Below are positions 40,498-62,457 of a stretch of 64,000 nucleotides of DNA, piece by piece. The first letter of the stretch is position 1. The number at the start of each line of letters is the position of its first letter. A program made the position numbers and the translations under genes. The notes beneath the pieces are model-generated. The model worked only from the letters and a program-made list of their open reading frames with translations. It did not search any database and had not been told where the DNA came from. Source of the stretch: Pagrus major (Eukaryota > Chordata > Actinopteri > Spariformes > Sparidae); assembly GCF_040436345.1 (NCBI RefSeq), contig NC_133216.1, positions 20,361,792-20,425,791 of the forward strand, given 5' to 3'.

Positions 40498-43400
40498 TTA
40501 CAAAATGGCGCACATCTTGGACGCCCACACAGTCTCAGAGCTCAGACCGGGGTCGTTCAGCTCGTCAAACACTCCGCTGTCGATCATCTCCTTCTGCCAC
40601 TTGACGGAGACTGCGCCTGTGCTGAACTCCTTGAAGAATTTCTCATCTTTAGCATCAAACGTAACGTTCTCATCCTCCGAGGTGTCTCTGAACTTGTCCA
40701 TGTTGTTGGCGTAGACCACGTTGGATTTTGGCACCCAGGGGGCCTCCACCAGCCCGGCCTCCAGACGGTGGAAATTAATGTTCTTGAAAAACACGTGTTT
40801 TCGCGGGTCCTCGTTGCTGGTGTTAGAAAGACACAACATGTGTTTAATGTTTGAATGGAGAATGAAACCTACGTTACACATTTTCTTGACGTTTGATTTA
40901 TTCCTTGACGTCTACACCAGCTAACCTCATTTCACAAATTACTGTATGTGCTTGAGAAAATGGGAGTTTGTACTCACCGGGACCCGAGGCGATACTGCGC
41001 CTTCTTCCTGAGAAAGCAGCGGATGATATCTTTGCTGGGAGCATCAAAGCATTTGTGTTCAAACTTGATGTCTTCCTCCAGAGTGCGACGGGTCACCTCC
41101 TCTTTCTGCACCTTTTCTCTGAAGTCTTTAAAAGGCAAGCGGGCGGCCACCATCTCGTACACGCTGCAGCCCAGAGCCCACCAGTCCACACACGTGCTGT
41201 AGCTCTCCTGCCTCAGGATCTCAGGGGCCATGTAACCCGTCGTACCAGCCTGACAACACAGACACAGGGGGAGACTGTGTGAGAGAGACTTTAAAGAGAC
41301 GTAATTCTTCTGGGGTTCATTTCAACGGTACTTGTTAAGGCTTGGTTAAATTCTGGGTTAACGCTCAGGGTGGGAAACCAGAACGCTGGGATAATGTAAT
41401 GTCTTCCAGGTTACAAGTCATATAAATGTCAGTAATGTGACAAACTGTTGTTTTTTTACAGCTTCCCAATTGATCAGTAACTGAAAAGATGATGGATGGT
41501 GAACATGTGGAGCAGAAGAAGAAAAAGAAAAGTAACAAATATGGCCAACTTTGACTTAAATGTATTAAACTTATTTCTATGCTAAAAATAACTTATTAAC
41601 ATGGGTAACACTTCATAATAATCATTGATAAATTATACATGTATAGATCATTCAATTTAGTTAAGTAATTGTAAAGGTTAAAAACATGTTTGTTAATGAA
41701 CTACACAGTATTTATTAACCATTTACAAAGTATTATGATTAATCTCAACTTTCCAATAAACAATTGCTAATAAATAGTTTATATATCATTTCATTGCTAG
41801 TTGACAATTAAATAACTGTTAGATAAAGTTTAATTAACTATAAATATGCCATTATTAATAATATAGAATTGTTTATTTTAATAATATAACAAATATTATA
41901 AAGTCTTACAATATATATATATATATATATATGTATTAAGATATCAAAGATCCAGAAAAAATACCAAGGACATGACCTCAGTGTCCTCAGCAGCTACGGC
42001 CCTGATTAGGAGGCACACTCGGCCATATTTCAGGGTAAAACATATTTGATCACTCGTTAGCTGATGTTAGCGTTCAACAACTTCCTGATGTGTTAATATT
42101 TCTGTATGATGTAGGATGTCAGAGGAAAATGGCTGCCATATCACTGTGGTCTATGGTCCCTGAGCTACAAGCTAACTGTGATACAAATAAAGAGATATAT
42201 ATGTATGCTAGCAGTGGTGCACTCAGGATGTTTGAGGGGCAGGGGCGAAAAACATTAAAAGAGCACCAGCTGTATGCAGGAGGGGGCACTAAATCATGTT
42301 TTATCTACCATAGGGGCATCAGCAAGGGCGTAGAGTGGTGTAGGGATGATGTTTTTTTTGTAGGCCAACCCAGAAGTACACTGCCCTGGTCCCCTGGATT
42401 TTGGATTATTGCTGAAAATAAGCCCTGTGGCAAACACAAGTTTATGACACTTATTAAATTAAATCGCTAGAAGTAAAAAGCTAATGTCAGGCTACAAACA
42501 GACTACATTGCGGTCGCGAGACATAAACGTCACCACCACTAAGCATCTAACTATGCAATTAATTTACGTGTACTGACTGTGAACGTACTGACTCATCTCC
42601 TCGTACAGACACATGCCTGGTGTTAGTACAGCAAAGATTAAGCAGCTGATGCCGAGGGCACTGGTCAGTCTTCCGTATATTTCCCAGCCATCCAGCTGGG
42701 GATGAGGTCAGTCACCTTTTAATCAGATTAATTTGGGTCTGACAGGGTTTGGTCTCCTGTGATGTTGGACAGGACATTATATCTATTCCTGGTAAGCTAC
42801 TTGTGGTGGGTGGTCAACAAAGGCGATTGTAATGGCATTAACAAGCGAGCAAAGATAGACCCTGGAGGGAACTAACCAAGCTCTTCTCCTATGGGTGTGT
42901 GAACAAAGATTATGTTGAGTAGCACAGTCCACAGGGTGCATGTCATCTGTCTGACATGTAGGTCAGTCTAGGGACAGGTCACCTCACTAACCTTCTGACA
43001 GATCATTTTGCCCTTTGGCAGCTCCACAGCTAATCCGAGGTCTGACAGCCGACACTGTCCTTTAGCATCCAGCAACACGTTCTCAGGCTTCATATCCCGG
43101 TACACAATGTCCATAGAGTGCAGGTGGAGTATCCCCGTGGTTATCTGGGCCGTGTAGTAAACAACACGCTCCATACGTATACCCCGCTCCCCGAGCTCGT
43201 AGATATGGAACCTGAGATCTCCTCCGTTCATGAGGTCCATGATCAGGCACAGGTGGGTCTTGTTGTCGTAAGCGTACGCCAGGTTTACGATGAAGAGGCT
43301 GTCCACCTTCTCCAGGATCTTCTTCTCCAGAAGAGCAAACCTCTCACCAGCTTTCTTCTTTAAGCGCCTCTTATCTAGCTTCTTGCAGGCGTACATCTGG

Positions 43401-44207
43401 CCTGTGAACTTCACCTGCACGGCACAAACCTGCAAGACAGAGTGACATCACTTTGAGCATCCACCGTGTCACCCTGAAATATGTTGACAGAAGCTAAAAC
43501 ATGACGGAAGAGGAGCAAAGATGTGCTCCCAGTGGAAGTCCATCAATCAATATTGAAGTCGAGATGCTGAGATTTCTGGTACTTACCTCGCCAAAGCCAC
43601 CTTTTCCCAAAGTCCTAAACTCATAAAAGTATTTGCTGGTGATCTTCTGCTTCTCAAACTCCTTCCACTGCAAGAACCTGTAGAAAAAGGGGCTTTTTAG
43701 GTACGCCGAGAAAGGTTTCCCCCTCAGGAAGTCCCTTGTGGCTTCTTTTATCTGGTCCATCGTCACCTCGTCGAAGTTCTTCTCTGATAAGTTCCTGCAT
43801 TTTTCAGCCGCCTCTCCCGTGAGGTAGGAGAGAAAACTCTCGGACTCAGGCCGACAGAACTTAGCGACAATTCTCTGTTTTGCTTTCTGTCTGGTTTCGT
43901 CTTCAGCAAAGCTCCACCGGCTCAGCTCCTCCAGGAACTCAGTGGCTGCCACGGACTGCGGGTCAGAGGCCAGGAGGAACTGCTGGAACAACTTCCTCCC
44001 AATAGGCTGCCGCTCACACAGTGACTCGTACTTATTCCCCACCGCCAGCTGGAGAGCAGACGACTTCTTTGGTTTCGGCAGCGTCAGGGAGAGTCTCTGC
44101 TTCCTCAGCTCATTGCGATCCACATGCTGAGCCTTCAGGTAGGCTGTGTTGGCTACCAGGGTGTCCAGTCCCACCAGGTCACCCACACTGGATGTATCCT
44201 GTGACAT
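40498..44207 (-). CDS. grk7: G-protein-coupled receptor kinase 7 (cone opsin kinase), four exons
   Basis: Exons on the minus strand are 43587-44207, 42992-43429, 40978-41249 and 40498-40816, all with GT-AG introns and a continuous frame of 549 aa (human GRK7 has 553). Family role: phosphorylates light-activated cone opsins at photoreceptor outer-segment membranes. The N-terminal helix region ([14 protein letters not shown]) and RGS-homology domain (about 60-180) precede the kinase domain: GKGGFGEV loop at 201-208, ATP lysine K223, catalytic D319 in [11 protein letters not shown] at 337-339 and MAPEI. The C terminus CAIL is a CaaX box whose Leu predicts geranylgeranylation, a GRK7 trait. Four coding exons match the human gene. 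An odd point is that the start used here adds about seven residues before the usual first residue. rnf7 lies upstream in the same orientation, as in human 3q23. grk7a versus grk7b is unresolved. Confidence 0.95.
41250..42991 (-). other. grk7 intron 2 with repeats
   Basis: A 1.74-kb intron. It contains an (AT)12 tract at 41909-41932 and, at 42212 to about 42345, a stretch starting 'cagtggtgcactcaggatgt' with G-rich interior ('gaggggcaggggcgaaaaac', 'gtagagtggtgtagg') that resembles a degraded hAT element. No exon-like sequence seen. Confidence 0.5.
41909..41932. repeat. (AT)12 microsatellite
   Basis: AT tract in grk7 intron 2. Confidence 0.9.
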
Positions 44208-45780
44208 ACCTGGGCCCGATCAACTACATACCTACAGTTCACCTATCTGCAGGTTCCAGGCACAAGTGAGCGCCTCAAGCACTTACATCCTGAACATCCT
44301 CCCCCTCTTGTGCTGCGTCTCCTGGAGAATTAAAAGCACCACAGTCCTTAGGGATTTGTTGCGAGCTAAGTATCTTTGCACGCTTATTCGTAGACGGCAC
44401 CAAGAGAAAGCAACTTATCTGGTTTGAACTTAAGAGGCTTTAGGCCCGTCTATTTTTAGAAGATGCACAGTGCTTGTGTGCAGTAATTGGGATGCCAGCA
44501 TGATGAGGTGGCAGATCCTGACCTGAACAAGTTATGGTTGATTTTAGCTCGTTAGGAGATAAAGAAGCCACTGTGAGAGCTGTGTGTGTATAATATGTGA
44601 AGTGTGCATCAAAGTATGCACACATCATTGTTTATTGTAGGAGAAAGAATGAAGACTTTAGTAAATTAACCCTAATTGGTTTAGTGGACAGCCTAAGAAA
44701 TTAATTTTCTTGAGCTGTTGGTGGAGTGACGGCATTCAATACCGGGGGAGGCTCTGGATCAGGTAGAAGTGTCCTTGTCCTCGATGTGTTGAAGTGTCCT
44801 TGGGCGAGATACTGAACTCTAACTTGCTCCTGATTGCTGTTCCAGCCATGTGAGTGCTTGTGTTAATGACGAAGCAAAGAAATATTGTGTGGTGCTTTTA
44901 GTTAGGAAGCACTGCGTCAGCAACTTGAAGCTTTAGTCGTACAGAAGTGGACACGGTTTCATCTAAAGTAGGTTGGAAAAACTATTGACTGCATCATTGC
45001 ATTCCTGTGACACTTGGACTCATTATGGACAGTTTAAAAACACGTGTTCAAATCAAACCAGCAGAATCATATCGCACTTTTACTCCATGCATTCTTCTTC
45101 CTTTTCAAGATCTGCTCCTTACAAGACCCAAAAAGCTAATTAGTGACGTGCAGCTTCCTCTGGAGCCGCTTCCTCCTCATGCAGTCCACTCCAAGACCTC
45201 TGAACACACTTTAATGTATTAACAAGTATCAGCTTATTGTGCAACCTGACGCCATTAATAGTGTTAAATGTATTATATGTTTTTTATTGGAAGTTTATCT
45301 AAGTAGCATCTGAGTCTTGTCAAGGTAGAGCTAAATGTAGTGGAGTAAAGAAAAAAATACAGCATCTCCTTCTGGTGTCGTGGAAAAGATATACTCAAGT
45401 ACAAGTACTTTAAATGTGTACTTAAGTACAGTACATGAGTAAATGTTCTTAGTTACAAACCACCACTGCTGCTGTGATCAGGTTAAGCTGCAAACTGGAA
45501 CAAGCCCAGACGTGGCATACATGTATAACAAGTGCCAGAGGTTAGCATGGCCGGCCTCCAGGTAGTTCACTTTGACTGCCAAAGTACTTACGGCTGTAAG
45601 GTGACTTAAGGATTTTAACTGGACGTTTCCATGTTCAGGGATTGTTTGGTGATGCACAGATTATGTTCAGGAGCCAACTCATACTCTGAGCCCCCGTCTA
45701 CAGGGCTACAACACGTACCCTCTCATATCTTAATACCAGGAAGTTATCTAAAATGGCTTGTTTGAAAGAAGTACATGTTT
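44208..45780. other. Intergenic DNA between grk7 and rnf7
   Basis: It contains the grk7 promoter/5' UTR, not resolved. About 44750-44880 is a SINE-type fish repeat ('gtccttgggcgagatactga', 'ctaacttgctcctgattgct') with 'gaagtgtccttg' present twice. About 45330-45470 belongs to the repeat family at 14800-14990 ('tcaagtacaagtacttt'). No gene found. Confidence 0.4.
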
Positions 45781-45797
45781 ACAGCTATACACAATTC

Positions 45798-45803
45798 TTT
45801 ATT
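45798..45803 (-). terminator. Putative rnf7 polyadenylation signal AATAAA
   Basis: Canonical hexamer on the minus strand about 340 bases past the rnf7 stop codon. It would give a short 3' UTR. Confidence 0.5.
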
Positions 45804-46143
45804 TTTAAAAAGACAGTCACATATTCAAGGTGTGCTGAACACCACCACAGTACAATAATGTAAAGCTAACATGTGACCAAACACTGCAAGGAGGTTCATG
45901 CTTCTCTTAATATGTCCACACGCATCGACCCCCTGGTTGACCGACGCGTCCTCGATGCTTCAAATTTATCCACCGTCCTCCTTCGACCAGGACTACTGGA
46001 ACATGCAATCATAAGTAGGAGGGCAGCCGTCGATGTCTAGTGGCTCTGCACGGGACGTTGCAGTGATCACTGTCAAGTCTTGTCACCACTTTCGGGTGCA
46101 TACGCAGGTGTCGTCTGAGGATCAGAACGCCTGGCACCGGAGC

Positions 46144-47226
46144 TTATTTGCCGATTCTCTGCACCACCCAGTCCTGCTGGCAGAGCGGGCAGCGATTGTT
46201 CTGCTTCACCCAGAGGGACATGCAGCAGTTGTGGAAGGAGTGGTTGCACTCGCCCCACACAACTGGAAGAAGATGAAGACAGAGGGAGAGTCAGTGAATG
46301 AGTATCAGAAGGAGCACTTCATAATTTATCAGCTGAGCTTTCACAGAATATAAAAGTACAACCTTAATTCTTTTAATGCTGAATAAAACTGATTTGTCTT
46401 TAGTTTGTCAATGACATTTAATCATGCCTTAAGATCTCTAAAGACACTATATGCACATCAATCTGGATAGAGTCAGTGATTTACAGTGCATATATCCAGT
46501 AAATCTTCTTATGTCACTCTGTGGAGGGTCATTCATACTGCATATAGTACTATTTAATTATTTTACACCACTTTACTTATGAGTTTAGTTGTATTATGAT
46601 TACTTGCTCTGCAGATGGCTCTTTAAATTAAATAAATCTGTTGACAGGTCAGTTTCAAACATTCACCCAACGCCATGTTAACTAAATAATATGTCTCTTT
46701 GACTTAGCTTACATGAAAGGACTTATTTAAATACCCTTCCTCTGTCATTAGCTGGCTTGGTCGGCTTATTTGACAGCTATATAGCTAAAGCTAACGTTAG
46801 CTTCTTGGATTAACCTGCTCACTTGTTGGTGGCTCAACGCTTTTATAACGTTTAACTACTTACCAACACAGTCCTCCTGTTTGTTTTCCGCCTGGCACCG
46901 GAGACAAGCGTCTGCAAACCAACACAGAGACATGTTACAGTGGCACTCTGACAGCGACCTCTGGTATCAGTGCAAATATTAGCCACCTTAGCTACATTAG
47001 CCGGTGTCCGAGCTAAGCTAGCTAGCCGGCTAACTAACACCGTCTGTTCCTCGGACTCACCCATCACTTGTACCCGACAAATGGCACAGGTGTCGCACTC
47101 CACGTCCCAGCTCCACATAGCTACAGCGTTCCACTTCTTTAGGGAAAACATCTTGTCCCCGCTGGACTTGGAGCCTGAGGAAGTGTTGTGAGAGAGGACT
47201 AAACCCGGCTCGTCACCGTCATCCAT
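46144..47226 (-). CDS. rnf7: RNF7/RBX2 (SAG), RING-H2 subunit of cullin-RING ligases, three exons
   Basis: Exons on the minus strand are 47061-47226, 46864-46911 (48 bp) and 46144-46262, with GT-AG introns; joined they encode 110 aa (human RNF7 has 113). The protein binds a cullin, typically CUL5, and recruits the ubiquitin- or NEDD8-charged E2. The near-invariant segment [20 protein letters not shown] (25-44) forms the cullin-binding strand. It is followed by a zinc-binding RING-H2 region rich in Cys/His (CDTCAIC, CLRCQ, ECNHSFH, CCMSLW, RCPLCQ). The C terminus WVVQRIGK is identical to the human end. The variable, acidic and Ser-rich N terminus (1-24) distinguishes it from RBX1. It is the upstream neighbour of grk7 and is transcribed divergently from the TMEM255 gene 1.6 kb away. 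Confidence 0.97.
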
Positions 47227-48819
47227 CTCTGCTGCGCTGTATCTAAGGCAACGCTAGCCGGGGCTAGCTTAACAGCTAAACAAAATGGACGAAGCTCTTG
47301 AGCAACGCTAATGCTAACGCTAGCTGGTTTAGCAAGCGACTTGCTTCAATGGGGACAGCAGAGGGCGCTGTTTTACAGGACTTAACCAAAAAATATACAC
47401 ACACAGACACACAGACAAAATGAAACAAATACATTTAGATAATCATCTCCAAGAGAGCAGATTCATTACAGGTACATGCTTCCTATCTTCTCATCTCTAC
47501 AGCACCATGGGATCACATAATGCATCTCTGCTGCCTTTTCTCTTTAACATCTTGTAAAAATGAGCTGAGCAGACAACACACAAGAGGTAGGCCATCACTG
47601 ACATAGTGTCTGTGGATGCTCATTTCTCACCCACAAACCTGTGTTGGGTCATGTGCTGTGCGTTGGCATGGTGCCACCAGATACCAGTACATGTCCTCTT
47701 AAACCCGCCTCAGAGCCGATAACACGCACATTTCTTTGGATCGGGTGTCATACAGATATAATGAATCCCCCTCTGTGTGTCTACTTGTGTTATCCTCCAG
47801 GTGCATCTGTAAATGTTACACCAACTGTGTAAACTTTTTATTTCTCCCAGTCAGTGTGCAGCCCTCCCACACTGCCTCTGCACGCCAAGCCCAGGATCAG
47901 AGCGAGAACGCCAGGAGATGAAAAACTGTGTTAAAGGTTTGTGAGTCACTGCTACTACAGGAGGATTTCTGGTTTTTATGGTTACAGACACATTTAAAAA
48001 AGCTGTGAGATTTCTATCACCTTCTCCTCTTGAATGACACTTTTAAAATATGTAATCATCATCATGTTAACACTTGAGGGTCCGATGCCAATACCACTTC
48101 ACTAAATCACTGTCAGGGAGTGCTGTAGAGCCGACTCCTTGTGTCTCTATGTCTCAACCTGTCTGTCTGCTCCATAAAAGTGGTTTATTCCACAGTAAAT
48201 CTCCCCCGGCTCCATATATGTGGAGTTTCTTCTAACTATGTCCAGCTGGGATGTGATTTATTAGCATGACGACTGGCAGGTCAGAGAGCGAAGGATAATA
48301 TAACATATATGCATGTGCTCATAAACAAAATCAAAATAAAGACATCAGTTGTAGCATTTTATGTGCCTCTACACGCATATTTCTAATTGATATTTATATC
48401 AAAATGCCTTATAAACCATTTATCAAGCAGTTGTAAAGGTTTATAAGCATCAGTTGCAACTCCCTAATACCCATCCATTAGAAATATGTCTAGATGAACT
48501 ACACATTAAACATTATTAAACATCAGATGCAACTTTGAGTCTAATAGTTTAGGATCTTCATTATTACAAGGGGTTAAATCAAGGACCCAATAATCTGCCG
48601 GTGCACAGGAGACTCCCATCCCTCCCATCCTGCTGCAGCAGCACATTAAACACACACTAATCTGCAACTAACAGGGTCAAATGTTGAGAATTTGCAGAGA
48701 CAGACTTGCTTTTATAAATCCTCGAGTGCAGTAGAGGCGCACATTTCCCGACTGTCCTTGAATGCAGCAGAGGCTGCAGTGAAGGAGACCCCCTGACGGA
48801 GGATAAGAGAGGATCTATC
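47227..48819. promoter_or_regulatory. Divergent intergenic region between rnf7 and the TMEM255 gene
   Basis: Directly upstream of rnf7 (47227-47345) is a CpG-containing stretch with repeated GCTAGC/GCTAACG motifs ('gctaatgctaacgctagctg'), the likely rnf7 promoter. The remainder is AT-rich without genes. The TMEM255 promoter/5' UTR should lie near 48600-48819. An in-frame TAA at 48715-48717 lies upstream of its first ATG. Confidence 0.4.
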
Positions 48820-51800
48820 ATGACTGCAAGGGTCCAGGGAGCAGCGGGCATGGACAAACCAGCGCCACAGAAGAGAGCAACAGGTAATTCACTGGGGGTG
48901 GAGGTGGTGATGCGGTCAGGTGCATGGTTACTTTCATTACTTACCCTGTTGAACTTATTGCATTTATTTGGATTTGTTTTTCTTGTGGCCTAATATTGGC
49001 TGATAATGACGCCTAGATGATTTTGTTTTCAGGCTGGTACATGGCTCATTTGACGTAGAAACAGATCTTCATCGACTTATTTTACAAACTTTTCTCAACC
49101 GGTAACAACAAAGGTCAAAGATGTAGTGATCACCGCTCAGATCTTTTCATTGCACAGTGTGTTAAACAGGTGTGTTTAAGACGAGAGGCTCATACTTAAA
49201 GGTCATTACAAAAGCTACATTTTTGCATCAGTAATTGTGTAATTTTTTACTGAATAATTTCAAAATAAAACACTTGGCCATGGTGGTGTTACAACCTAAC
49301 GATCCTGTTCATTGATTGGCTTACAGAACGTTGCTCTGCTGCCTCAGTTTGTATTTTTGCTTGTAATAATCAAAGGACTGTATGCACACGTCAGAGGGTT
49401 AGTATGTCCTGATATTCAATATTAAGTAAACAGTGATGATATTAAACAGTCGCATTTTGATTTGTACAGTTTTACTAGAGTATTTGTACAACATACCCTC
49501 ACAGCGTATACTTTGTTGTTTTCCCTCATTCAGTCCTTCTAAAAACAGGATTTCTACACAAGTTTTAATAAACAGAACAGAAGATTCTCGTCTCGGCTTA
49601 CACTTTAAGACAATTGTGTTGACATTTTGGCGTTTTTCAGAGTTATTAAAGCTTTGGAAAGAACACACACATTATAAAATCATGCAGTGCGGGCACTGTT
49701 CTTTGTACAGTTTAGACAATAACTCTGGTGGATTGTTGACTAGATACATTGCTGATAGATTAAAGTAAATGAAGAAGACAATAAGTAGTCCACAGCAGTT
49801 TGGACCTACATACAGACTGCTTCAGTACCCTGAGATGTAAACACTCATGACATTTAAAATTAAACAAGACGGAGACATAGGGTTTGGATGTTGTTTTTAT
49901 AATCAAGTTAAATTAAATCATTTCAAATTAGATTTGTTTTCTTTACCCTGATTTGAAAGTAGAAATATGCAGGTAGGCTCCTGCCAAGAGAATCACAGCT
50001 GGCGAGCAGTCAGACGCCAAGTTTATTGTGTTTAATTCGTCCTAACCTGAACTGTTTGACATTGTTATATGACACGGCTGAGGGTTTCTCTCTCCTCTGC
50101 GGGTTGCAGAGTCGATGGTGAGAGTCAGGGGAGCTGTGTGGCTGGTACTGGGCATGCTCAGTCTGTCCCTGCTGCTGGTGGTGCTGGGAGTCTACGCAAC
50201 AACCCGGACAGAGAGCCTGAGTGTGTCTGGATACATATCTGGAGTGATTGTAAGATGGTCCCTTGATAATTCTCTGCCATGATTTGTTCAGTAAGACGAC
50301 AGATATGATATTTGTTCAAAAACATAAAAACGTCCTCCAGTTATGAAGCTGCTCCTTTAGTCTCGCAGTGCCATTCAAATCCTCACACCTTAATGACTGA
50401 ATGCATTGATTTTGCCAAAACAACATGATAGTTGTAGTCTACTGGCAACAGGCGTACCAGACCTTCGTCCTAAGCTAGCAGTTTGGTTAGTTTCAGGCTG
50501 GTGAAAGGTCTGGCTTCACCAATTATCATTCAACATAGCAGTCTGGTAAGTTAAATGACTCAGCATTGACTTTTGATTTCACGTAAATATGTGTCATAAT
50601 AAGCTGCTTTCACAGTCAGCCTATATTTTTCTGATGAGGATGGCCTGCTGTTAAGTGCTAATGTTGGCTTTTCTTCCCTTTGGACTAGAACCAAATCATA
50701 ACAAAGTGTCGCAGCTCTGCAGAAAATTAATCACATTTCTTTATTTTGCATAACACTTAGCCTCTTGTGTTTGTTGTATTATGTTCTCTGCAGCTGACCC
50801 TCGGCTCGTTCCTGGGACTTCTGGGACTCCTCCTGGATGAAAACCGTAAACAGCTGGTATATTCTCCTGCTCCCCCTGTATATTTTCATCTGACACACTC
50901 ACACGCATACATCTTCTCCGTCATATTTTTTCTTCCATGTTTTTCTTTCGCACACCCATCCCCTGACCCGGCAAGGAGTGTTTTTTGGCCAAGAAAGAGA
51001 AACAGTATGTCAGCACAGTCACCAGTGGCGCTGCTCTGCAACACATAGCGGACAGACTTTTATATTTATCGATGAGGAGGAGGCTTAGAAATTATCTATC
51101 ACACGTTTACTGTACGTGAGATTCTGACGTGGTATTCATTGTATAGCACAGAATATAGTATTTATGTATCTACTGTCCGTCAACGCACATTCCTTCCTCT
51201 AACACCTATCACAGTGTCTCCCCGGCCTTTGTAAACTAGCGAAGCATACCTCTGCTGATCTTACCTGCTCACCACTTACAGAAGCTTTCCAAGAAAAACA
51301 ATTTAAGAGGTATGTAATTAAAGTAAATCAGATATCAACTTACGTATTGCTTCACAGTACGGGATAAGGACATTAGGCAGGTTAATTTGATTTGTAGGGA
51401 TGAACCATTTTTGTTGTTGCTGAGCTACGTGCCCGCTGTAATCATCTTATTTTCTAAATGCCGGCTCAATTAACTGTCCAGAGGTCTTTCTCCATGTATC
51501 AGATGTCATATCTCGGTCAAATGTTTGTGGTTCTGGTATAGTAGCAGTGACTCCACATGTGTAGCTGTAGTGACTCATTCTGACCCTGGGAGTGGTGGTT
51601 GTCTGGTTGACTGTCTTTGAAACACTTGAATCATCACCGGTGCAGCCAATTGGTTTTAGAAGTCTCTTACTGCAATTACTTAAATAGAGATTGTTTGTTT
51701 GTAGTCAGTTGATTTTACACGAAGCGTCAAACTTTGGTCAATTTGGCCAGAGTTGTTAAGTTATTTTTTGAAGTATTTTTTGTCGAATATGAGACAGTAT

Positions 51801-54800
51801 TTTAATATTTCAGTAATCAATAAATCAAAATACTCTGACCAACAAAAGAAAAAAAATCTTGTAAGCCCATGGGGTTGACCAGAATCTTCCACAGGGCTCA
51901 GTGGATGTATTGCTAAAGCGTTTTAGCGTGCTTCTCACACAAGAATGGCCAAAATTTCCTAATGCTAACATACCATCTTGACAGCAGTGAGTACTAACAA
52001 TAACCATGTTCGCTGTTTTATGTTCATTGTAATAATGTTAGGTGTTTTTATTATTTGATTATAGAAATCTTGTTTGCTCTCGCTGGTTTCTACCCCGACC
52101 CCAGAGGATGATTAATGTTACGATCTCTGTGACCCCAGCTGTCACCACCACCAGGCTACAGTTACTACATTTACACAGGGGAAATTACAATCCAATTTAT
52201 CATGAAAACATAAAAGTGGTTCATACTCAGGCAGCATTGCTTCATCCTCACCTGATGTTCTGTTGAAGCACGCTGTCAAAACAATCTCGGTTATCTAAGA
52301 AAAAACAGCGGACCATCCTCTTCGTGAGGGACACAAAGGGCATGGGAGAAGACTTGCATCGGGTAATTCTTGGATCCTGTGGTTCTTGGATTTGGCGTCG
52401 TGTTTTTACCCACAGGTTGTGGAATTTTATCTTGTCTTATTCAATTTATTCCACCCATGACTTTTTGCCAGAATGTTGTAAAATGAGCCTGAATGATGAA
52501 GAGCAGGAATGAAGGCAGATATTCTGCACAATCAGAGGCTCAGTTACAGTGTTGAGTGTTGACACGTTCATCTCGCTCCGCCAAGTCTCAAATAGGCAGC
52601 TAACACACACAACAATAACAAATAATGTTGTGATTTAGACAAATAAGATCAGACAAAGTGTTACAAAAACCTTTTTCTCAGCCTTCTTGTGAAACTGCTC
52701 TCAGTCGAATAAAATATCACCAGCTTTTTATCTGTTATTTTAAAGGTTATTATGTGGAAATTCTCTCATTTACAATTTTTCTTCTTTGTTCCTCGTCCAG
52801 CTGACGGCTGCCATCGTATTCCTCAGCTTCGGGATCATGGTCTCTTTTCTGTGCCTGGTGATTGATGGCGCCTGTATTGTCTTGAACATGGTGAGTTACC
52901 TGCTCTTGCATGTGTATACTGTAACACTAGACATGACTGCACTGTGTGGGTGATGAAACAAAGCAGCAATCGTAGACCGTGAGCAATAATAAACCGCTGT
53001 GCTGGTTCGCTTTGATCCACCTGGAAAACCATTCGGCCTGCCGTCGCTCTGTCGGCAGTATTGACACAATTGTGTCCCTGAAAAAATTCCCACAGGCTAG
53101 AGCTCAGTCTGTATAACCTCCACCAGCTTTGTTTTTTGTGCATTGACCAACTAAATGACCAGTTGTGAAAGTATAATGTGAGAAAACGTACTGGACCAGG
53201 ATGCACCATCAGTGCAGAAGTGTTTTCAGTTTACGTCCAGACCTCTGATGACACACACAGTTGCTGAATGTGATTGATGGTAAAACGGAGCTGCCTCCCT
53301 AAAGGAACATTCGACAGGTTAAAAAAGCAAAGCTGCATTCCTGTTTCCAACCTCAAAAATAAATACAGATGGAAGACTCCCGCTTCTTATTCAGAGAGAG
53401 AAATGAACATCTATTCACATCTCAGAGTAAAATTACAACTTCTTACACAGCATAAAGTCTTCAGAGCAAAAACACCTGAGACAAGAGTCCTGCACACAGC
53501 TTTATATTTAGCACACACAGGAGAGCGGCATCAATCTTCCAGCCTGTCCTCATCTGAAAAAAACGTCCGTGTAGGTCGACTGTGAAAGCAGCTTATTACC
53601 ACCCATATTTACATTTCTTGTTAGGCGGCTCCATCTAGTGGCCGCAGTTATTACTCCGGCAAAAAACGGCAGCAGGAGGAAGTTCAGACGAAGTCGTATA
53701 AAGAGCAACAAGTCCACACAGGGACGAGACAGGGACGGATGGTAGGGTCACACAAGGAAAGCATTCACCCAGGAGGCCGCTGCTCATGTCCAGTGTGAAA
53801 GCGAAGGTCCACGGTGAGTTATTTTAAGACACTGATGTAGTTAAGTGACGTCACGCACATTACATAACTCAATTTATGTAACGTAAGCACATTTGTATAT
53901 GAAGTTACAGGAGTTATTTTCTGCCAAACCAAGACATTTTCCTTCATATCACCAAGTTTTTTTCTTTCCTAAACCTAACCAAACTGTCAACGTATGACAA
54001 GGGCCCGGTGTGCCCGTCGCTGATGCTGCAACAGACACATTGTTTTTGGATGGTGTTATACGTGATATTCAGTCTCGTAGGTATGAGACTGTGTTCATCC
54101 AACTCTCGGCAAAAATATGTTTTTCCCAAAATGTCAAACTATTCCTTGCGACTGTATACGACACTTTTTACTACTTCTTTCCCTGATTTATACAGGTAAT
54201 ATTATTTCTATAGAATGATATATATTATTTTCGTCTTTCCTTTTGACAAACATTTACTAGGTCTGGTCACAGCTGGGACTGGTGGGTTGGTGGGTTCAAC
54301 ACGTTGCATTGTAACATCAGGTCAAAGTGACATGGCGTCCATTTTCATGCAAACTGTGATGGTTGAAATGGTGAAAATACTGTAAAAACCATACATGACA
54401 CAACCATGCCTGTTTTTGTTGAAATGCCATAATGTGTGGCTGTGTGTGTGTATGAAAGCAAAGTTAAAAATAGAATAACAGGCAGTGTAGCGTACCAAAA
54501 AGATTAGGGAAATGTAAACTAGACTTTGATTTATCGTAACTATAAATGGCTCCAGCGCTCTCATGTGAAAGGTGACATGATATAATGCTTCCTTATAACA
54601 CTGTTGTGCTCACAGTACACACAAGAGTTATGAGTGCAGACCTCCCTTTAAGAATAAATTCTCAACATTACTGAGCGAGTCTGTTCACAGTGTAGTAAAC
54701 TCTTCAAAACCGGACAAAGTTTGCTACTCCCTTTTTCCACTTGTCTGAGTTCTTTTTTATACAATATAATGTTTTATATCTCTTCTTTCCTTTTATTACA

Positions 54801-57800
54801 CAACGATGTAAAACAAACAATAACATCATCATCTAACCAACCATTGATATTTATTTCAGGTCAAGTTAACATCATGTAACTGCACACATGGTGCCAGGGA
54901 CAATGATGGAAGTTACGTCCAGGACTTCATTTGTTCCAACCTTGACAAAGTTTGATATGTTGAATCTCATAAAATGTATCAAACTGTAACAAAAACAGCT
55001 ATGATTACTGTGACCTCTACCAGAGGAACCATTTACAGTGAAGTAAACCTTATTTTAACAATTTAAAAGAGCCATAAACAATATTTGTACTTTTGGAAAC
55101 TGATCACAAATTGCCTCCAAACTCAACCTTCACTTCTTGTGCAGTACATGTCAGTTTATTTTGTTTTTTTATTCCTCATTTTTATTCTTGACTGTGTTTT
55201 ATCCTGAGATGAAACCCTGTGGATGATGTTTCTTCGTATATTTAACTTTTGCCAGGACATGCGTCCACTGAAAGCAGGGAGGTGTCAGTATTACAGCAGC
55301 GGCAGCAGCTACATCTATGAGAATTTCTACACCTCTGTGAGTAAAAGTTGTTCTCTTGTCTGCCAACTAACACACGTTATCACAATCTGAATTACAGCTC
55401 TATCAGCTCCAGCTAAATTAGATTTTTTGTCAGATATGACTCCATATTTTCTTAAATAAGTGCGTGTGACTACATTTTGAATTTGCGTTTCCTTTTTCAG
55501 GTGTCATGCTGGAATCCGACAGAGTCTTGTAACATGACGGTACGAAGTGGGACCTGCTACTGCTGCGACCTGTACAACTGCGCCAAGTGAGACGAAGCAT
55601 CATCTTCCTGTGATATTATCTCAATGTATCGTTACTACTGCCATTTCATCATTAATGAATCAATCATCGGCAATAAAAGCGGCTGTTGTTTTCCTCTGCA
55701 GTGGAGGCTACCTCAGCAACTACTATGAGTTTGTTGGAGTCGAAAGCTGTGAAGAAGTTTTCACTCTGTACATTTTGATTTGGACGCTCGCCGGCCTGAA
55801 CCTCGTGGCCTTCTTCATGGGTATCCTCACCACAGCGGTGCTGGGCAGCCTCAAGAACTTGGTAAGACACACACACACACACACACACACAGACTCAGAC
55901 TCAGACACATATTTATAAAGATACGTATATTGTGCGAACGTGACGCGCTGTGTACATCTACGACTAAAACCCCTTTCACCCTGGACGAAAACCCACTAAC
56001 ATCCACAAACATCTGGCTTTTGTCTTCAGTGGAAAAGAGTGCAATCAGCTAACCTGATGCGTCTGATTGTTTAACAGAACCATCTGGGAAGTCGTCCTTA
56101 GAGTCGGGAAATAGCAGGCACTTGGCAGGTGATTGAGGAAACCATCAGTCTATCATCATCTGTCATCGACTAACTTCAACCAATCAGATCGATGAGGAGT
56201 AAAAACATGTTTTTCCATTGAGAAAAGCCTTCTTTGCTAATCTTTCAATGAAATATACTCTCCAGTTCTGATATAACTGATGCTGTTGCAGCTATGCAAA
56301 CCTCTTGAAGTGCCACATTTGCTGTTTTCAAACAAACTAGACGCTTCCTTTACTGGTTGCATACTTATACCATGCCTGTAGCTGCCAGAAGTTCCTCATA
56401 GGACACTGATTGGTCAAACCCCTGTGGTTTGGCCACAAGCGCATAGCTGCAGCCTGGCAAGATGGATTTGTGAGATCTCACAATCACAATCTTGAGAATC
56501 AAGCTGCCTCGCAGAGTAAACAATTGCCATCCGTTGCCAGGTCGAATGACTCTGCACTAGTCGCAGGTATTTATTGTCTCCAACACTGATTGGCTGCAAT
56601 AGTAACCCTGAATGCCTGGGTGCTAGCTGCTGACACTATCTTGCAGATCAACAGTCCGACTGAACTCTGCGCGGGGTGAAGGAGTTGGGTTCAGATCGCT
56701 TTAGGTTTTTCAGTTTTATTCAGGAGAAATCACTTTACGGTAGCGTACAGCCAGCTGAACTGCAGATCAACATGAAATGAGAGCCAGAAGGTATAATGTA
56801 AATCTGATGTCTGCCAGTGAGAACTGATAGCATCAAACCACAGGTTAAGCCTTAACCTCCCTGACCTGAAGCCTCTGTCACTTATTGTTTGACTGCGCAA
56901 GCTGCTCATAGATAAATGGATAAAAAAGCAATGAGGAAGCATGCGGATGTACAGAAGATTTCGTCCATGTGCCATCTACAATGTGGGACTTATTGTGCAC
57001 AGATTTTATCCGGCTCAGGGCCCAACGTAAACTAAGTCTCCAGACCTGTCAATCAGTAGGCAATGGGCTCAGGAGAGGACTGAAGTTCATTACAACTCTT
57101 TCAGTGATGGTTACAAAGCAGCAAAAACTTTATTCTGTATACAGATTTTAAAGCCAAAAGACTTCATGTCAGAGCTATTACTTTAAATATTCAGACTTAT
57201 AGCATAGACAGTGAAGACTACTGCTCAACTTTCTTATGGCTGCAGATCATAAGCACAGTCAGTCGACTTATAAATCACATACTTGGTAGCAGTAGGTTCC
57301 AGATGGAGCCAGTTGGTGAAACAGATGCAAACCAAATGTAATTCAAGCACAGTTTCACAGAGATGTTGCTAAGCTGGGTGGTATTTTACACCAAATGTCG
57401 TGTGTTATGCAATTTTCTTTCCTTCAATGGACTGTGTGGTCTCACATTCGTTGTTTGTTTCCTGCTGTGTTATCAGATTTGACGTCATGCGTACATGGGA
57501 CTGATGAGTGAGTACTAAGAAGTATGAATCACGACTGGTTGAATAACTTCTGGTAGGAACGCAGCGCGACCAGATATCGCTTATGCAATCCGCGACGAGG
57601 TTTTTCCTTGTAGTTACATCTAATTTGCAAAATGTGGTGCTCCTTCAACAGCATGCCAACGTTCAGCCAGATGATCTCGAGACCACATGAGGGAAAGAAG
57701 ATGTGTCAGCTTGATTTAAGAGTGGGAATCTTCACATGCAGCGGTTTGATGGCTGGAAAACAGTCACATTGTATTTATTCTAAAAGTTTGCTTCTCAATA

Positions 57801-60800
57801 TGATCGCTGCTTATTGAGATCACTTTATGAACCTGTTAGTGCATGAACTCAGGTTTCCTTGTTGCTGCAGCCAGAACTCTGTCCTTCGTCTTCCACCTCC
57901 GTGCTGTAAAAGCCTGGTCTGATGCGTGTCAGCAGGGTTAGATAGTTACCCACGGCTGTCTGTTGATGATAAACCCCACTCCATCAGTGAGGTTTATCAA
58001 AAGCATTCCTACACTCCTCCTCCTGCAGCTTCCGCTTGTAAAACCTTCAGAGACACTAAGTCAAAGACATTTATCCTCCAGACTCTCCCCGCAGACTCCA
58101 ACACCATTTCATATAGTCTTCTACATTCTTTCATTATCTTCATATCGTAATCTTTCATCGTGCATCGTACTGCTGGGTTTTCAGTTCATTAGACGTTTGG
58201 ATTGCATTAATTTTTACTTTTTGGGGGAATCTTAAGGTTTTGCACCAAGACAGACGTCTGCTCGTTGCTCATTCCACAAAAACAAGACAGATGGAAGAGA
58301 AAAGAAGAACAAAACCTTTGTTTGTGACCAATTTTTTTTTTTAAATATCTAAAGTTTACTGGTTCCAGCTGAACTGATTTAATGTTGACCGTCCCTTGCT
58401 CGACATGACCTGACTACAATGTCTACACCCCCTTTACATGGTATTGAGTTGCAACAATTAATTACCAACTTTGCAATAACCGTCGTGTGACTGGTGTTGG
58501 ATTCCCAAAGCAGCTTCAACTAGATGTGACTCGTAGGTCAGCATTTACAAACTGCTTCCACCACCCTGCCGAGTTAAAGGCACAATTTGTAAGATATTGC
58601 CACAATTTTAGCTTATTCATTGTTCTGTCAAAGACATCTACAGTACATCTTACGTTGCAGAGATATCTATTGATGTTAGCATGCTAGCCAGCTAGCCCCG
58701 GCCCGTATTCAAGTCTCCCTCTTTTTACAGATTTTAGACGGGTTTAACTGCCTCATTAACTCATTGTAAAACACACTTCATTCAAACTCAACAGAACCAA
58801 AAATAAAACCCAACAAAATCGGCTTGGTTCGGTTCCAACATTCACCTCTGCTTTGGTCATAATGAATCCTGTTTGGAGCGACCTTCGACAGGTGGCCAAG
58901 CTTTACACATCGCACCTTTTAAACACCAAAGGTTCAGCAATGTTGCGGCCTTTTAAGAGCTTTATGAGAACAGAACAAGAATTTCTTTGCCAACGCCCGC
59001 TTCACTGTAATTGCTCTGCACATGAGAAATACTGAACTTGGACTTGAGCTGATCTGGCCTGGGTGAAACTCAGGAGATCACCGCCAACGGACCACACAGC
59101 CTTTCGTTATATCACACAGGATAATGATAATGATGAAGGGATTAGACTCAGTGAACAGGCTTCGTTCTCTGTTATCTTTAGATCAGTTGTTACGTCTGTG
59201 TTTTCACTGTAGGAAGGTATTCAGATTTTCCTCCTCATATTCTTTAATTTAATATGATTCAGTGCCATCCGTCAATTTCTGACTCATCTGCGTCAGACTT
59301 TTTGAGTCCATCTAGTTCCTAGAAATGTAGGAGTGGCAAATTATTATCTGGCTACATACCTCTGTGATGATAATGTTTACATTTATTGTTTTGCAGATGT
59401 TTAATGTATTTTTTCCCCTCATGTGGCCGCAGTAGATTAAATTAAAGACAGGGAAACTAACAGTTTGTAAAGTTTATGGGTTTGCAGCCTCCAACAGTTT
59501 TGGATTTAATCTCAAGCGTGCTGCAGACAGACAGACCACCCAAATGGAGACCAAAACAACAGATCCCAGATTCATTAATGCTTCATTTCCAGGGAAAGAA
59601 CTAAAATGACCTGATAAGACCGCTCGTCACTCACCGTGTGCCTTGAAGCAACTCCCATAATGTGTCGATGCTTTGTGAAAGATTCAGCATCACGCATTTA
59701 ACATGAGGAGCGTAGAGCTGAAGATGGGCTCGCATTAGCTGGTTGGCCTCTGCTGTTTTTAATTCACCCTCCATCATCAGCTGTTTGGCTTCCAGCTGCA
59801 GCCCAGTCACCAGAATTAAATGTTTGGCAGTTTACATTTGTGCAAACCACAGATTTGTTCAAATTTGTGTGTATCATATGTAGCATAATGAAATCTCTGC
59901 AATCTGCGTCATGTCCTGTTTACGTTACATGTGCATGAGCTGACAATCATGTCATAAGATGGAGGGGTGAGGATGGTGTTACAGGCGAGGAGGCTGACAA
60001 GCCAGTGACCGCTGTTCAATGTCAGGACATTTTCTAGTTGTGTTTATTGCAACAAAGCCGGATATTTTAAGCCAAAACATCTTTTCCTCATCCTCACCAA
60101 GTGTTTTGTGTCTAAACCTAACCGGAGCGTATTCGCACCGTGTCACAACATAACATTGAACCTAAAGAAACGCAGTTGCAACATCCAGGCCTTGCAGAAA
60201 CATCGCCACAGCATGGTGATTGGGTTGACTCGTAATGTCCAGTAGTTTTCATGAAGGTGTGAATTGTAACCTGAAAGTTCACTCTGCTCTCATGCCAACA
60301 AAGTTTGCTGCCACAGCTCCGTCCTCCACCATCACCACCACCTCCTCCTCCTTGGGTGCTGCATTTCTGTTTGATTTAATGTCTCTGAAAACACGTTTTA
60401 TCAACCAGCTTCTTAATGTGAGCGATGAAGTCCAACATGAACACAAATTCTGCCCAAGTTGGAAGAGTTTTGGTTATTTCACATGAGAGTCTTTTGTATT
60501 TGTGTTTCTGTCTCCCTCACACAGCAGAGCTTTAATCTAACTGTGAAACTATTAGCTGTAAACGATCAGTTCTTTGACATCAGTGTGTGTGACTGAACTG
60601 ATTTTACATATTGCAGTCGTCCAGGTTAGGTTTTTCATATTTAGGTTAATTCAGATTAGAGTCATAAATAAAAGACATGTTTTAATTGCGATGGGACCGA
60701 CTGGCCTCTTGCTCCTTTGGGAGATGAGACACTTGAAACGTAAACAAAATAGACTTGAGTCAGACTGTCTGTCATCATGGCCTCTAATCAGCCTCATCTT

Positions 60801-61048
60801 AATCCTCTACTGTAAATCCTTCTTGTGTGACTGTTTTATTTGTTTCATGTGTGCACAAAGGAAATGGTGCTTATAATAATATTGTGTGTGTGTGTGTGTG
60901 TGTCTTTGTTTTGTGTCAGAGGAGTAGCAGCCCTGTGAGCGAGCCCTCTGAGAGCACTGCATCTTCCCCTACAGCTCCTCTGCTGATGAACGCCAACACA
61001 CACACGGTTCACCAGCTCCACCCAGTCAGTATGCGGTCAACACAAACA

Positions 61049-61079
<31 letters not shown>

Positions 61080-62457
61080 CTGCAAAACATACCATCACAA
61101 GTACACGTGTATGTTTAGTTTCTCCTCATTTTTCAGCGCTCACTCTCTGACTCTTACAGACATGCAGTCGACTCAAACCTCCACATCTCCACCCTACGTT
61201 CATCCATTCCCACTGATTTCTCTTTAAATGTTAACTCAGAACAGAGTTCAGACGCTCACTGTGAGCCTGATATGGGATGTTTCCTGTCACAAACTGTACA
61301 GGGGCCACATGAACTTTCCAGCTACATCAGAATGAAGAATGTGAAGAAACAACAGTTTTGAAGTTATGTGAAAGACGTCTTTGCTCTGTGTTGCAGAGAT
61401 GTCTACTGAAGTAAGCATGCAACATGTAAGATAGTTATTCTGACACTTTAGGTTTCCCAACTTCTGGTACCTCTTATTTTCAAAATAAAAGCTCTCATCA
61501 GTGGTGCTTTTTGCATGAGTTTTAATACAAAAAGGAAAAACATTAGTTTTATCCAAATTTTAGTCATTAATACTAAGAATTGACTAAGTGTGATTTTGTT
61601 TCAGCCCGTTTTACATTCATCCGGCAACACAAGACTCCACACTCAGAAGCTGTAGTGTCAGCTAAACTTGGTCCAGCACTGGCGTCGGTGTAACTGGCAA
61701 GCTTGTGTAGAATAAACCCATAAAGATATGTCGTGTCTAGAAAACCAGCCAGGACCGATCACCCGCAAGCATTTCTCAAGATGCAGGGACACCCCAAAGT
61801 CTTCTAATCTTTACGAGTGGACAGTCTGAACCTCCTCTCTCGTCAAACACTGCATAAGATTGCAACGACCCTTTAGAGCTATTAAACAGACGATTCAGCA
61901 GTTTTACAACAACATTTCAGCAATTATCCAAAGGAGTGCGTTGAATTCAGAAACAGATCTGCACTCTTCCACAAACAGAAACTGTGAAGAAAGATCACTG
62001 AGGGCTCCACACTTGACCACCCACATCTGATCAAGTTAATTGGTTGCAGCATTTCAGTCTCGGTCAGTGTTGTAAATGTGTTTCACAGCAGGAAGGCTGT
62101 AGACCAGTTTTTCCACATGAGTGGAAGCTAATCAAAGGTAAACTGTGAATGTTTAATGTCGATCCAAAACAGCAGTTTGACAAAGTATGTGAGATCTTGA
62201 GGCTTTTTTTAACTAAAATCTAAACCAAATGTTGATTATACAAAGTAGATCATTCATCTTTTTTATATTGGATTAGTTGCAACACAGGAGACACATGACT
62301 TGAAGTCTGTGGTCAACTTTCTTTGTTTGTCTCTGTCCTTCGTCCTGTCCGTCTCATCCAGGGAGCCTCGATGTATTTGCCTGCAGCAGACGGGGCAGCT
62401 GCCTCACAGAGTTTTCCCTCATCGTCGACTCCAACCCTCTTCCCTTCGGCCCGCTGA
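48820..62457 (+). CDS. tmem255b: TMEM255 family tetraspan membrane protein (TMEM255B-like), nine exons
   Basis: Exons: 48820-48883, 50110-50249, 50794-50856, 52801-52890, 55256-55336, 55501-55586, 55702-55861, 60920-61024 and 62362-62457. All splice GT-AG and keep one frame of 294 aa (human TMEM255B has 326). Four membrane helices lie near 30-50, 65-83, 90-115 and 194-220. A large extracellular loop between helices 3 and 4 is cysteine-rich and holds the family signature CYCCDLYNC (165-173) and one N-glycosylation site (N157). GRCQYYSSG in exon 5 is closer to TMEM255B than to TMEM255A. Molecular function of the family is unknown. Exons 8-9 encode a short Ser/Ala/Pro tail lacking the PPPY-type ending of human TMEM255A/B. 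The exon 8 donor, hence the last frame, is the least certain part. The first ATG is chosen because it is the first after an in-frame stop. Confidence 0.88.
48884..50109 (+). other. Intron 1 of the TMEM255 gene
   Basis: A 1.2-kb AT-rich intron. No exon-like sequence or bounded repeat was recognised inside it. Confidence 0.6.
50857..52800 (+). other. Intron 3 of the TMEM255 gene
   Basis: A 1.9-kb intron, AT-rich, ending in a good polypyrimidine tract ('ttcttctttgttcctcgtcc') before AG. No embedded gene or complete repeat recognised. Confidence 0.55.
52891..55255 (+). other. Intron 4 of the TMEM255 gene with repeat remnants
   Basis: A 2.4-kb intron. About 53930-53995 ('tttcctaaacctaaccaaac') is a fragment of the repeat also seen at 60040-60180. 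About 54080-54155 ('ccaactctcggcaaaaatat', 'cccaaaatgtcaaactattc') is the right end of the foldback family at 5162-7297. A GC-richer patch at 53630-53815 is unexplained. Confidence 0.5.
55867..55890 (+). repeat. (AC)12 tract at 5' splice site of intron 7
   Basis: The tract begins directly after the donor sequence GTAAG, so it is in the zone next to U1 binding. Confidence 0.95.
58575..58922. mobile_element. MITE with TTAAAGGCAC/TTAAAAGGTG termini
   Basis: The left end 'ttaaaggcacaatttgtaag' is mirrored by the right end 'ttacacatcgcaccttttaa'. Length 348 bp. Internal 'gagatatctattgatgttag' links it to fragments near 10120 and 61395. It lies in intron 7 of the TMEM255 gene. Confidence 0.7.
60883..60903 (+). 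repeat. (TG)10 tract near 3' splice site of intron 7
   Basis: Pure TG tract between likely branch-point region and acceptor, complementary to the AC tracts at 55867-55890 and 61052-61079. Confidence 0.95.
61052..61079 (+). repeat. (AC)14 tract at start of intron 8
   Basis: The tract starts 28 bases into intron 8 (61025-62361) and is complementary to the TG tract on the other side of exon 8. Confidence 0.95.
61080..62361 (+). other. Remainder of intron 8 of the TMEM255 gene
   Basis: No embedded gene recognised. About 61360-61430 ('gttgcagagatgtctactga') is a fragment of the MITE family at 58575-58922. The acceptor is preceded by a good pyrimidine tract ('tttgtttgtctctgtccttc') and no TG repeat, unlike intron 7. 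Confidence 0.5.

Follow-up and report, generated by a model that had tools for sequence, protein, structure and literature searches.

Intron 7 of a TMEM255/FAM70 gene in Pagrus major carries an AC repeat directly after its donor and a TG repeat directly before its acceptor, and the two are complementary. RNA folding predicts that the UG tract has a nearer and stronger partner, an AC tract beyond exon 8, than the one at the far end of its own intron. The sequence analyzed was a 64-kb window (GCF_040436345.1, NC_133216.1:20,361,792-20,425,791, forward strand), and window coordinates are used throughout; all features of the gene described here are on the plus strand. Our leading interpretation, held at somewhat less than even confidence, is that intron 7 belongs to the (AC)m-(GU)n class and that its end-to-end helix favors the joining of exons 7 and 8.

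The gene was parsed into nine exons with consensus ends and an open frame, and the spliced nine-exon protein matches Pfam FAM70 (PF14967) with an E value of 2.1e-80. Because of this open frame and this match, 55862 and 60919 appear to be true intron ends, and 55862..60919 an intron of a FAM70/TMEM255-family gene, as far as sequence can show. Exon 7 (55702..55861, 160 nt), which was defined by its open frame, consensus ends and the FAM70 match, is followed by intron 7 (55862..60919, 5,058 nt, phase 0, GT-AG) and exon 8 (60920..61024). Exon 8 is 105 nt long and phase 0-0, as it is in both paralogs, so the frame would be preserved if it were skipped. Intron 8 (61025..62361) has the donor GTCAGT and, by tract scan, ends without a TG tract. 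An alternative donor for exon 8 (GTATGC, 4 nt further downstream), which leaves an open frame of 309 aa, was dropped because both paralogs have a phase 0-0 exon 8 and because exon 9, with the phase 0-0 donor, resembles that of L037 (GASMYLPAADGAAASQS in the TMEM255/FAM70 gene and GSYIFPDPAGLSDDSQS in L037, compared by eye). Pfam scores hardly separate the two donors (271.0 and 266.6 bits). Ten ORFs around the window were also scanned against Pfam, for the sole purpose of naming neighbors.

The donor of intron 7 reads TTG|GTAAGA at 55862. A pure (AC)12A tract of 25 nt (AC7, 55867..55891) starts at intron base +6, and a pure (TG)10T tract of 21 nt (TG7, 60883..60903) ends 16 nt before exon 8. 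Direct reading and parsing thus place both tracts exactly where the first-pass annotation had put them, (AC)12 from base 6 after the donor and (TG)10 ending 16 bases before exon 8. The 16 nt between TG7 and exon 8, CTTTGTTTTGTGTCAG (60904..60919), hold a U-rich polypyrimidine tract and the AG. The annotation had called this tract weak, which was ruled out: its pyrimidine fraction at -20 to -4 is 0.71, an ordinary value among the gene's eight introns (0.65-0.88), and its U fraction of 0.65 is joint highest among them. The closest yTnAy motif resembling a branch point, from a consensus scan only, lies upstream of TG7 (60870..60874); its A, 60873, is 47 nt before the end of the intron. A third tract, overlooked in the annotation, is present just past the exon 8 donor in intron 8 (AC8, 61040..61079, from the tract scan and the fold); it is imperfect at first and then pure AC (61052-61079).

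Lin et al. 2016 (Genome Res, doi 10.1101/gr.181008.114) reportedly described (AC)m-(GU)n introns in zebrafish. Passages of PMC9024468, PMC7404189, PMC9198270, PMC12962679 and PMC9508853 describe this class, so the annotation was right that such introns are in print. From its coordinates, the zebrafish example given in a passage of PMC9024468 spans 171 nt, and a passage of PMC6883713 speaks of short introns. Intron 7 shares with these introns the AC just after the donor and the GU just before the acceptor of the same intron, the occurrence in a fish and, for RNA that stops just inside exon 8, the predicted cross-intron helix. It differs in its length, 5,058 nt compared to 171 nt, in its ordinary polypyrimidine tract and in the competing AC tract past the next exon; both the length and the ordinary tract count against the end-to-end helix reading, whereas the location of the tracts exactly at both ends of intron 7, in the published orientation, supports it. 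According to this reading, AC7 and the UG tract would pair into a roughly 20-bp helix across intron 7 in the nascent RNA, and the helix would hold the two splice sites together and so favor exon 7-8 joining. It may also lower the dependence on U2AF2. The helix in cells, its aid to splicing and the lower U2AF2 dependence are inferred. Intron 7 is at best a further candidate of an already published class, which adds little by itself.

The predicted folds depend on how much RNA is included. RNA spanning 55840-60960 folds as a 5-kb bridge, with 60884-60903 paired to 55867-55886 (about 20 bp) and three more pairs at 60904-60906. Once the RNA reaches 61100 and so includes 76 nt from the start of intron 8, the UG tract is paired with AC8 instead of AC7 in the fold of minimum energy, which argues against the bridge. 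The helix of about 20 bp that the annotation had proposed is therefore predicted in the shorter RNA and replaced by UG-AC8 pairing in the longer one. The energy of the longer RNA is -1462.5 kcal/mol with the exon-8 hairpin compared to -1457.2 kcal/mol with the bridge enforced, a gap of about 5 kcal/mol, and the duplex energy of TG7 is -53.0 kcal/mol with AC8 compared to -48.7 kcal/mol with AC7. Since transcription of AC8 would give that UG tract another partner, the AC7-UG helix may act only briefly.

These folds raise another explanation, which we consider unlikely: AC8 is the main partner of the UG tract, and a hairpin around exon 8 buries the polypyrimidine tract and causes part-time skipping or circularization, while AC7 competes and favors inclusion. 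There are 33 predicted pairs between the TG7 region (60883-60916) and 61040-61074, 21 of them involving the UG tract and the other 12 the polypyrimidine tract. This duplex is stronger than that with AC7, the local fold around exon 8 has a z of -4.67 (0 of 200 shuffles were equally good), and in the predicted fold the intron 7 acceptor is the least accessible of the gene's eight (0.14 compared to 0.23-0.68). The length and phase of exon 8 fit skipping, and exon looping-out is a reviewed mechanism in section 4.2 of PMC7404189. However, the hairpin is predicted from a single sequence, repeats pair readily with any complement, AC7 is transcribed before AC8, and the fold takes no account of the spliceosome or RNA-binding proteins. 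A stable block of the acceptor would also be deleterious should exon 8 be required. In addition, enforcing the bridge leaves the polypyrimidine tract paired with the imperfect stretch of AC8, so the two states do not fully exclude each other.

As one element with two partners and differing predicted splicing outcomes, TG7 resembles Dscam1 selector and docking sites and looped-out exons. Unlike those systems, it involves simple repeats and one exon rather than a cluster, its outcome is predicted only, and its two states may partly coexist. The UG tract could be imagined as a two-partner switch, in which the AC7 bridge gives exon 8 inclusion, the AC8 hairpin buries the acceptor and favors skipping or a circle, and the order of transcription decides. 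We find this very unlikely; the bridge would have only the time taken to transcribe about 150 nt.

A further explanation is that the tracts act singly as putative protein sites, with UG bound by TDP-43 at an acceptor like that of CFTR exon 9, and CA bound by hnRNP L near donors. The acceptor of intron 7 has a UG repeat, then a U-rich tract right before the AG, which is the order given for CFTR exon 9 and TDP-43 in passages of PMC12171016. The U-rich tract of intron 7 is longer than that of CFTR and interrupted, and both donors neighboring TG7 carry CA tracts, while those passages mention none for CFTR. A title cited in PMC13174678 states that hnRNP L stimulates eNOS splicing via CA repeats, and introns with a single tract do exist (intron 8 of the TMEM255/FAM70 gene and one in a calcium-channel gene). 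Still, single action alone does not explain both tracts on one intron, and the U-rich tract of intron 7 would appear better than that of the CFTR T5 allele, which causes skipping. We regard protein sites as a decidedly unlikely explanation. A UG repeat in a fish intron also recalls the pUG fold, a quadruplex that takes 12 guanosines and has (GU)11.5 as its shortest pure sequence, according to passages of PMC12962679. This fold was rejected for TG7, which has 10 guanosines in 60883-60903 and thus too few; spacing in the fold is flexible by the same passages, so guanosines next to TG7 might contribute.

The tracts might instead be neutral microsatellites of a repeat-rich fish genome that happen to lie close to splice sites and are tolerated there, which seems rather unlikely. 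The window contains 5 AC and 7 TG tracts of at least 20 nt in 64 kb. At this density, the chance that a given intron carries such tracts no more than 30 nt from each of its two ends is 8.4e-6, and chance alone would give 1.7 such introns per assumed 200,000, which agrees with neutrality. The genome is highly AC/TG-rich (331,991 + 328,860 starts of (AC)12), and both tract types follow strong donors. Within 20 nt after CAGGTAAG, a strong donor, (AC)10 occurs at at least 34 places and (TG)10 at 24, and the strand counting each place once gave 14 and 11 compared to 8 and 4 for the backward-read patterns; these counts are anchored on CAGGTAAG matches. AC outnumbers TG only mildly, suggesting that the preference for AC after strong donors is weak. 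Coding-like sequence was found upstream of 13 of the 33 fetched AC places and 6 of the 20 fetched TG places. A literature search on microsatellites at fish splice sites returned nothing on point, as judged by title and abstract start.

Against neutrality, the gene's 12,753 nt of intron contains three tracts of at least 20 nt, and all three are no more than 30 nt from a splice site and in one orientation, AC after the donor and TG before the acceptor. The probability of this under uniform placing is 7.7e-6, a value biased by the fact that two of the three tracts prompted the choice of locus; the third alone gives about 0.02. The homologous intron of both paralogs was found to have no tract, which fits neutrality and weakens the end-to-end helix reading, although these introns are short (111 and 617 nt). 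Some introns with AC at the donor also lack a TG partner: 13 of 20 fetched AC places had no TG tract of at least 16 nt in the next 9.8 kb downstream, and AC follows the donor of a 6,385-nt intron in a calcium-channel gene, where the acceptor is plain. AC after the donor was dropped as a mark of the (AC)m-(GU)n class because TG is also seen after real-looking donors (L048 and L055) and because the L028 intron carries AC without TG.

The same anatomy as in intron 7 was observed in three introns of another gene of this genome, which both supports the end-to-end helix reading and argues against neutrality. This sulfatase gene (L029) was met in a sample selected only by a donor plus AC, and one of its exons matches PDB sulfatases (best E 1.1e-4). 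We take it, with its other exons, to be SULF. AC follows 5/6 of its donors and TG precedes 4/6 of its acceptors (3 pure and 1 imperfect), and the opposite tract type is seen at 0/12 intron ends. All nine tract-bearing ends therefore share one orientation, with one being the search anchor and one imperfect, and three of the five complete introns have AC at the start and TG at the end (one TG imperfect). The proposal that intron 7 is an instance of the zebrafish class in another teleost is partly supported, by its anatomy and the sulfatase introns, but it overlooked AC8 and is weakened by the paralogs.

The TG-exon-AC layout also flanks exons of the sulfatase gene. On the very unlikely switch reading, this would suggest that fish introns of the (AC)m-(GU)n class that neighbor each other are in general faced with either a bridge over the intron or a hairpin around the exon. 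With a single UG tract and two AC partners comparable in strength, one distant and one close by, intron 7 could serve as a test case for how such introns escape pairing that spans the exon rather than the intron. This question arises in any gene with neighboring (AC)m-(GU)n introns.

Among ten peptides upstream of AC places searched against Pfam, only a TANGO6 exon (L014, E 1.8e-9) scored above the curated cut-off; AC follows its donor, and no TG tract of at least 16 nt was found in the 9.8 kb downstream. At another place (L010), the CAGGTAAG anchor is not a donor, since this place holds an exon of protein disulfide isomerase encoded on the opposite strand. That exon has its own donor, which is followed by AC.

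The FAM70/TMEM255 gene occupies positions 48820-62455 of the forward strand and has nine coding exons (PF14967, E 2.1e-80). Intron 7 (55862-60919, +) starts with GTAAG, which is directly followed by an AC tract, (AC)12A, at 55867-55891 (AC7). A TG tract, (TG)10T, is found at 60883-60903 (TG7), and CTTTGTTTTGTGTCAG extends from there to the end of the intron. Direct reading thus confirmed the tracts at the two ends, with the coordinates and repeat counts reported in the first-pass annotation. This layout is that of the zebrafish introns that Lin et al. 2016 are reported to have described. Such (AC)m-(GU)n introns have AC near the donor and GU near the acceptor and do not need U2AF, with the cep97 intron 5, 171 nt by its coordinates, as an example (PMC9024468). 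Other papers place the class in fish and lamprey (PMC7404189), describe it (PMC9198270; PMC9508853), term its introns short (PMC6883713) and report pUG tracts in fish along with complementary CA repeats (PMC12962679). For CFTR exon 9, an acceptor of similar layout is given a protein-based reading (PMC12171016).

The intron was originally described as having a weak polypyrimidine tract, and this description did not hold. The pyrimidine fraction at -20 to -4 of the acceptor is 0.71, equal to that of introns 1 and 2 and higher than that of intron 4, and its U content is joint highest. Upstream of the TG tract, 47 nt before the end of the intron, is the closest branch-point-like motif. A third tract, AC8 (61040-61079, +), begins 16 nt into intron 8, beyond exon 8, and is pure AC from +28; no TG tract as long as 10 nt occurs in intron 8. 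The first reading of intron 7 as an AC/GU structured intron is partly supported. The intron is a candidate member of the known class, but that reading assumed a weak acceptor that is absent and did not consider AC8 as a competing partner.

The predicted pairing of TG7 depended on the RNA folded. When the RNA from 55840 to 60960 was used, the proposed helix joining the intron ends was recovered, with 20 bp between AC7 and TG7, and three more pairs (55864-55866 with 60904-60906) carried it on into the donor. When the RNA was lengthened to 61100, however, TG7 shifted to AC8 (61054-61074) and the polypyrimidine tract was also paired; these were the only two end points used for the long folds. The duplex energy of the end of intron 7 was -48.7 kcal/mol with its own start and -53.0 kcal/mol with that of intron 8. 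Enforcing the AC7-TG7 helix cost 5.3 kcal/mol (-1457.2 vs -1462.5 kcal/mol) and left the polypyrimidine tract paired with the imperfect part of AC8, while keeping TG7 unpaired cost 41 kcal/mol (-1421.5 kcal/mol). With the intron ends linked by 50 A, mean TG7 pairing was 0.001 with AC7 and 0.986 with AC8. The local hairpin around exon 8 had a z of -4.67, and none of 200 shuffles was equally stable. It contains 33 pairs between introns 7 and 8, of which 12 involve the polypyrimidine tract, and the accessibility of the intron 7 acceptor within it (0.14) is the lowest of the eight acceptors, the others ranging from 0.23 to 0.68. All these folds are thermodynamic models of naked RNA that ignore proteins and kinetics; in order of transcription, AC7 is about 5 kb ahead of AC8. 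The most useful new point is the hypothesis, drawn from single sequences, that AC7 and AC8 may compete for TG7.

The window contains five AC and seven TG tracts of at least 20 nt. At this density, the probability that a single intron carries such marks within 30 nt of each end is 8.4e-6, or 1.7 such introns expected by chance per assumed 200,000 introns. The introns of the gene total 12,753 nt and hold three tracts of at least 20 nt. Each of these has the class orientation and is no more than 30 nt from a splice site, an arrangement with a probability of 7.7e-6 if tracts are placed uniformly. Since two of the three led to the choice of this locus, the independent part of this figure is that of the third tract, about 0.02.

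The genome searched comprises 786 Mb in 25 contigs, the window being G000:C2:20361792-20425791. A search for CAGGTAAG followed within 20 nt by (AC)10 or (TG)10 located AC at no fewer than 34 distinct places (14 forward, at least 20 reverse; 33 among the matches listed) and TG at 24 (11 and 13 by strand). On the strand that counts each place once, the backward-read patterns occurred 8 and 4 times, compared to 14 (AC) and 11 (TG). Upstream sequence was coding-like for 13 of the 33 AC places and for 6 of the 20 TG places fetched from the 24, by a rough codon score whose threshold is passed by 5% of stretches from the window part taken as non-coding; the score failed to pick up a real exon (L028) and accepted L010, where the anchor is no donor. 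Any preference for AC over TG after strong donors is therefore at most mild. L055 and other places with TG after a donor resemble real exons. At L048 and L055, TG tracts stand shortly after donor-like sites with strongly coding-like upstream sequence by codon score, opposite to the class orientation.

Twenty AC places were fetched, 10 kb each, and 13 of them, including a TANGO6 exon (L014; Pfam E 1.8e-9), lacked downstream TG tracts of at least 16 nt. The exon at L028 (G000:C6:37476903-37486902, minus strand) belongs to an L-type calcium channel (best E 4.4e-6). The donor of the 6,385-nt intron that follows it runs into a long AC tract, and the acceptor, at the putative next exon recognised from known calcium channel sequence, is plain and pyrimidine-rich, without TG. 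At L010:401-580 (minus strand) there is a protein disulfide isomerase exon (E 3.3e-17) whose donor is followed by an AC tract starting at intron base 5, with TG tracts at 149-187 in the intron; the next exon was not found within the fetched stretch.

Another of the twenty places, L029 (G000:C7:1453956-1463955, minus strand), has one exon matching PDB sulfatases (best E 1.1e-4); the gene is presumably SULF, its name and other exons being assigned from known sequence. AC follows five of its six donors (A, B, C, E and F, not D), and TG precedes four of six acceptors (A, D, F and, as an imperfect run, B; not C or E). Both tracts are present in three of the five complete introns, namely A (918 nt, with an imperfect TG), C (177 nt, with AC34 and TG59) and E (about 0.6 kb). 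Intron B (4,520 nt) has AC only and intron D (309 nt) neither. No intron end carries a tract of the opposite type, and four further tracts are inside introns B and E, distant from the ends. Introns of AC/TG-ended anatomy therefore exist in this genome and can cluster in one gene. Lin et al. are reported to have found such introns in about 10% of zebrafish genes. L029, its 177-nt intron included, is a cleaner class example than intron 7 of the window. Exons A, B and F are flanked by TG upstream and AC downstream, as in window 60883-61079, and competition between pairing across the exon and across the intron would follow from this layout also.

Searching the genome with the TMEM255 protein returned eleven matches, of which nine belong to the window gene and the other two are at C18:30821588 and C4:19608673. 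The paralog introns of the same position and phase as intron 7 are 111 nt and 617 nt long, and neither locus (about 3.2 kb fetched each) contains pure AC or TG repeats of at least 10 nt, so the intron 7 tracts are not common to the whole TMEM255 family. Both paralogs have an exon 8 of phase 0-0, which supports the 105-nt exon 8 of the window gene and means that its skipping would leave the frame intact.

The gene is adjoined within 40977-47253 (minus strand) by a G-protein-coupled receptor kinase gene with RGS and kinase domains. The same interval and strand hold a putative RNF7-like gene, for which the ORF searched had no Pfam match. Given human synteny (GRK7-RNF7 vs GRK1-TMEM255B), the window gene may represent a third, ancient copy of TMEM255 that mammals have lost. 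A Frizzled receptor gene with a single open frame is also present at 858-2654, minus strand (PF01534, E 2.6e-132).
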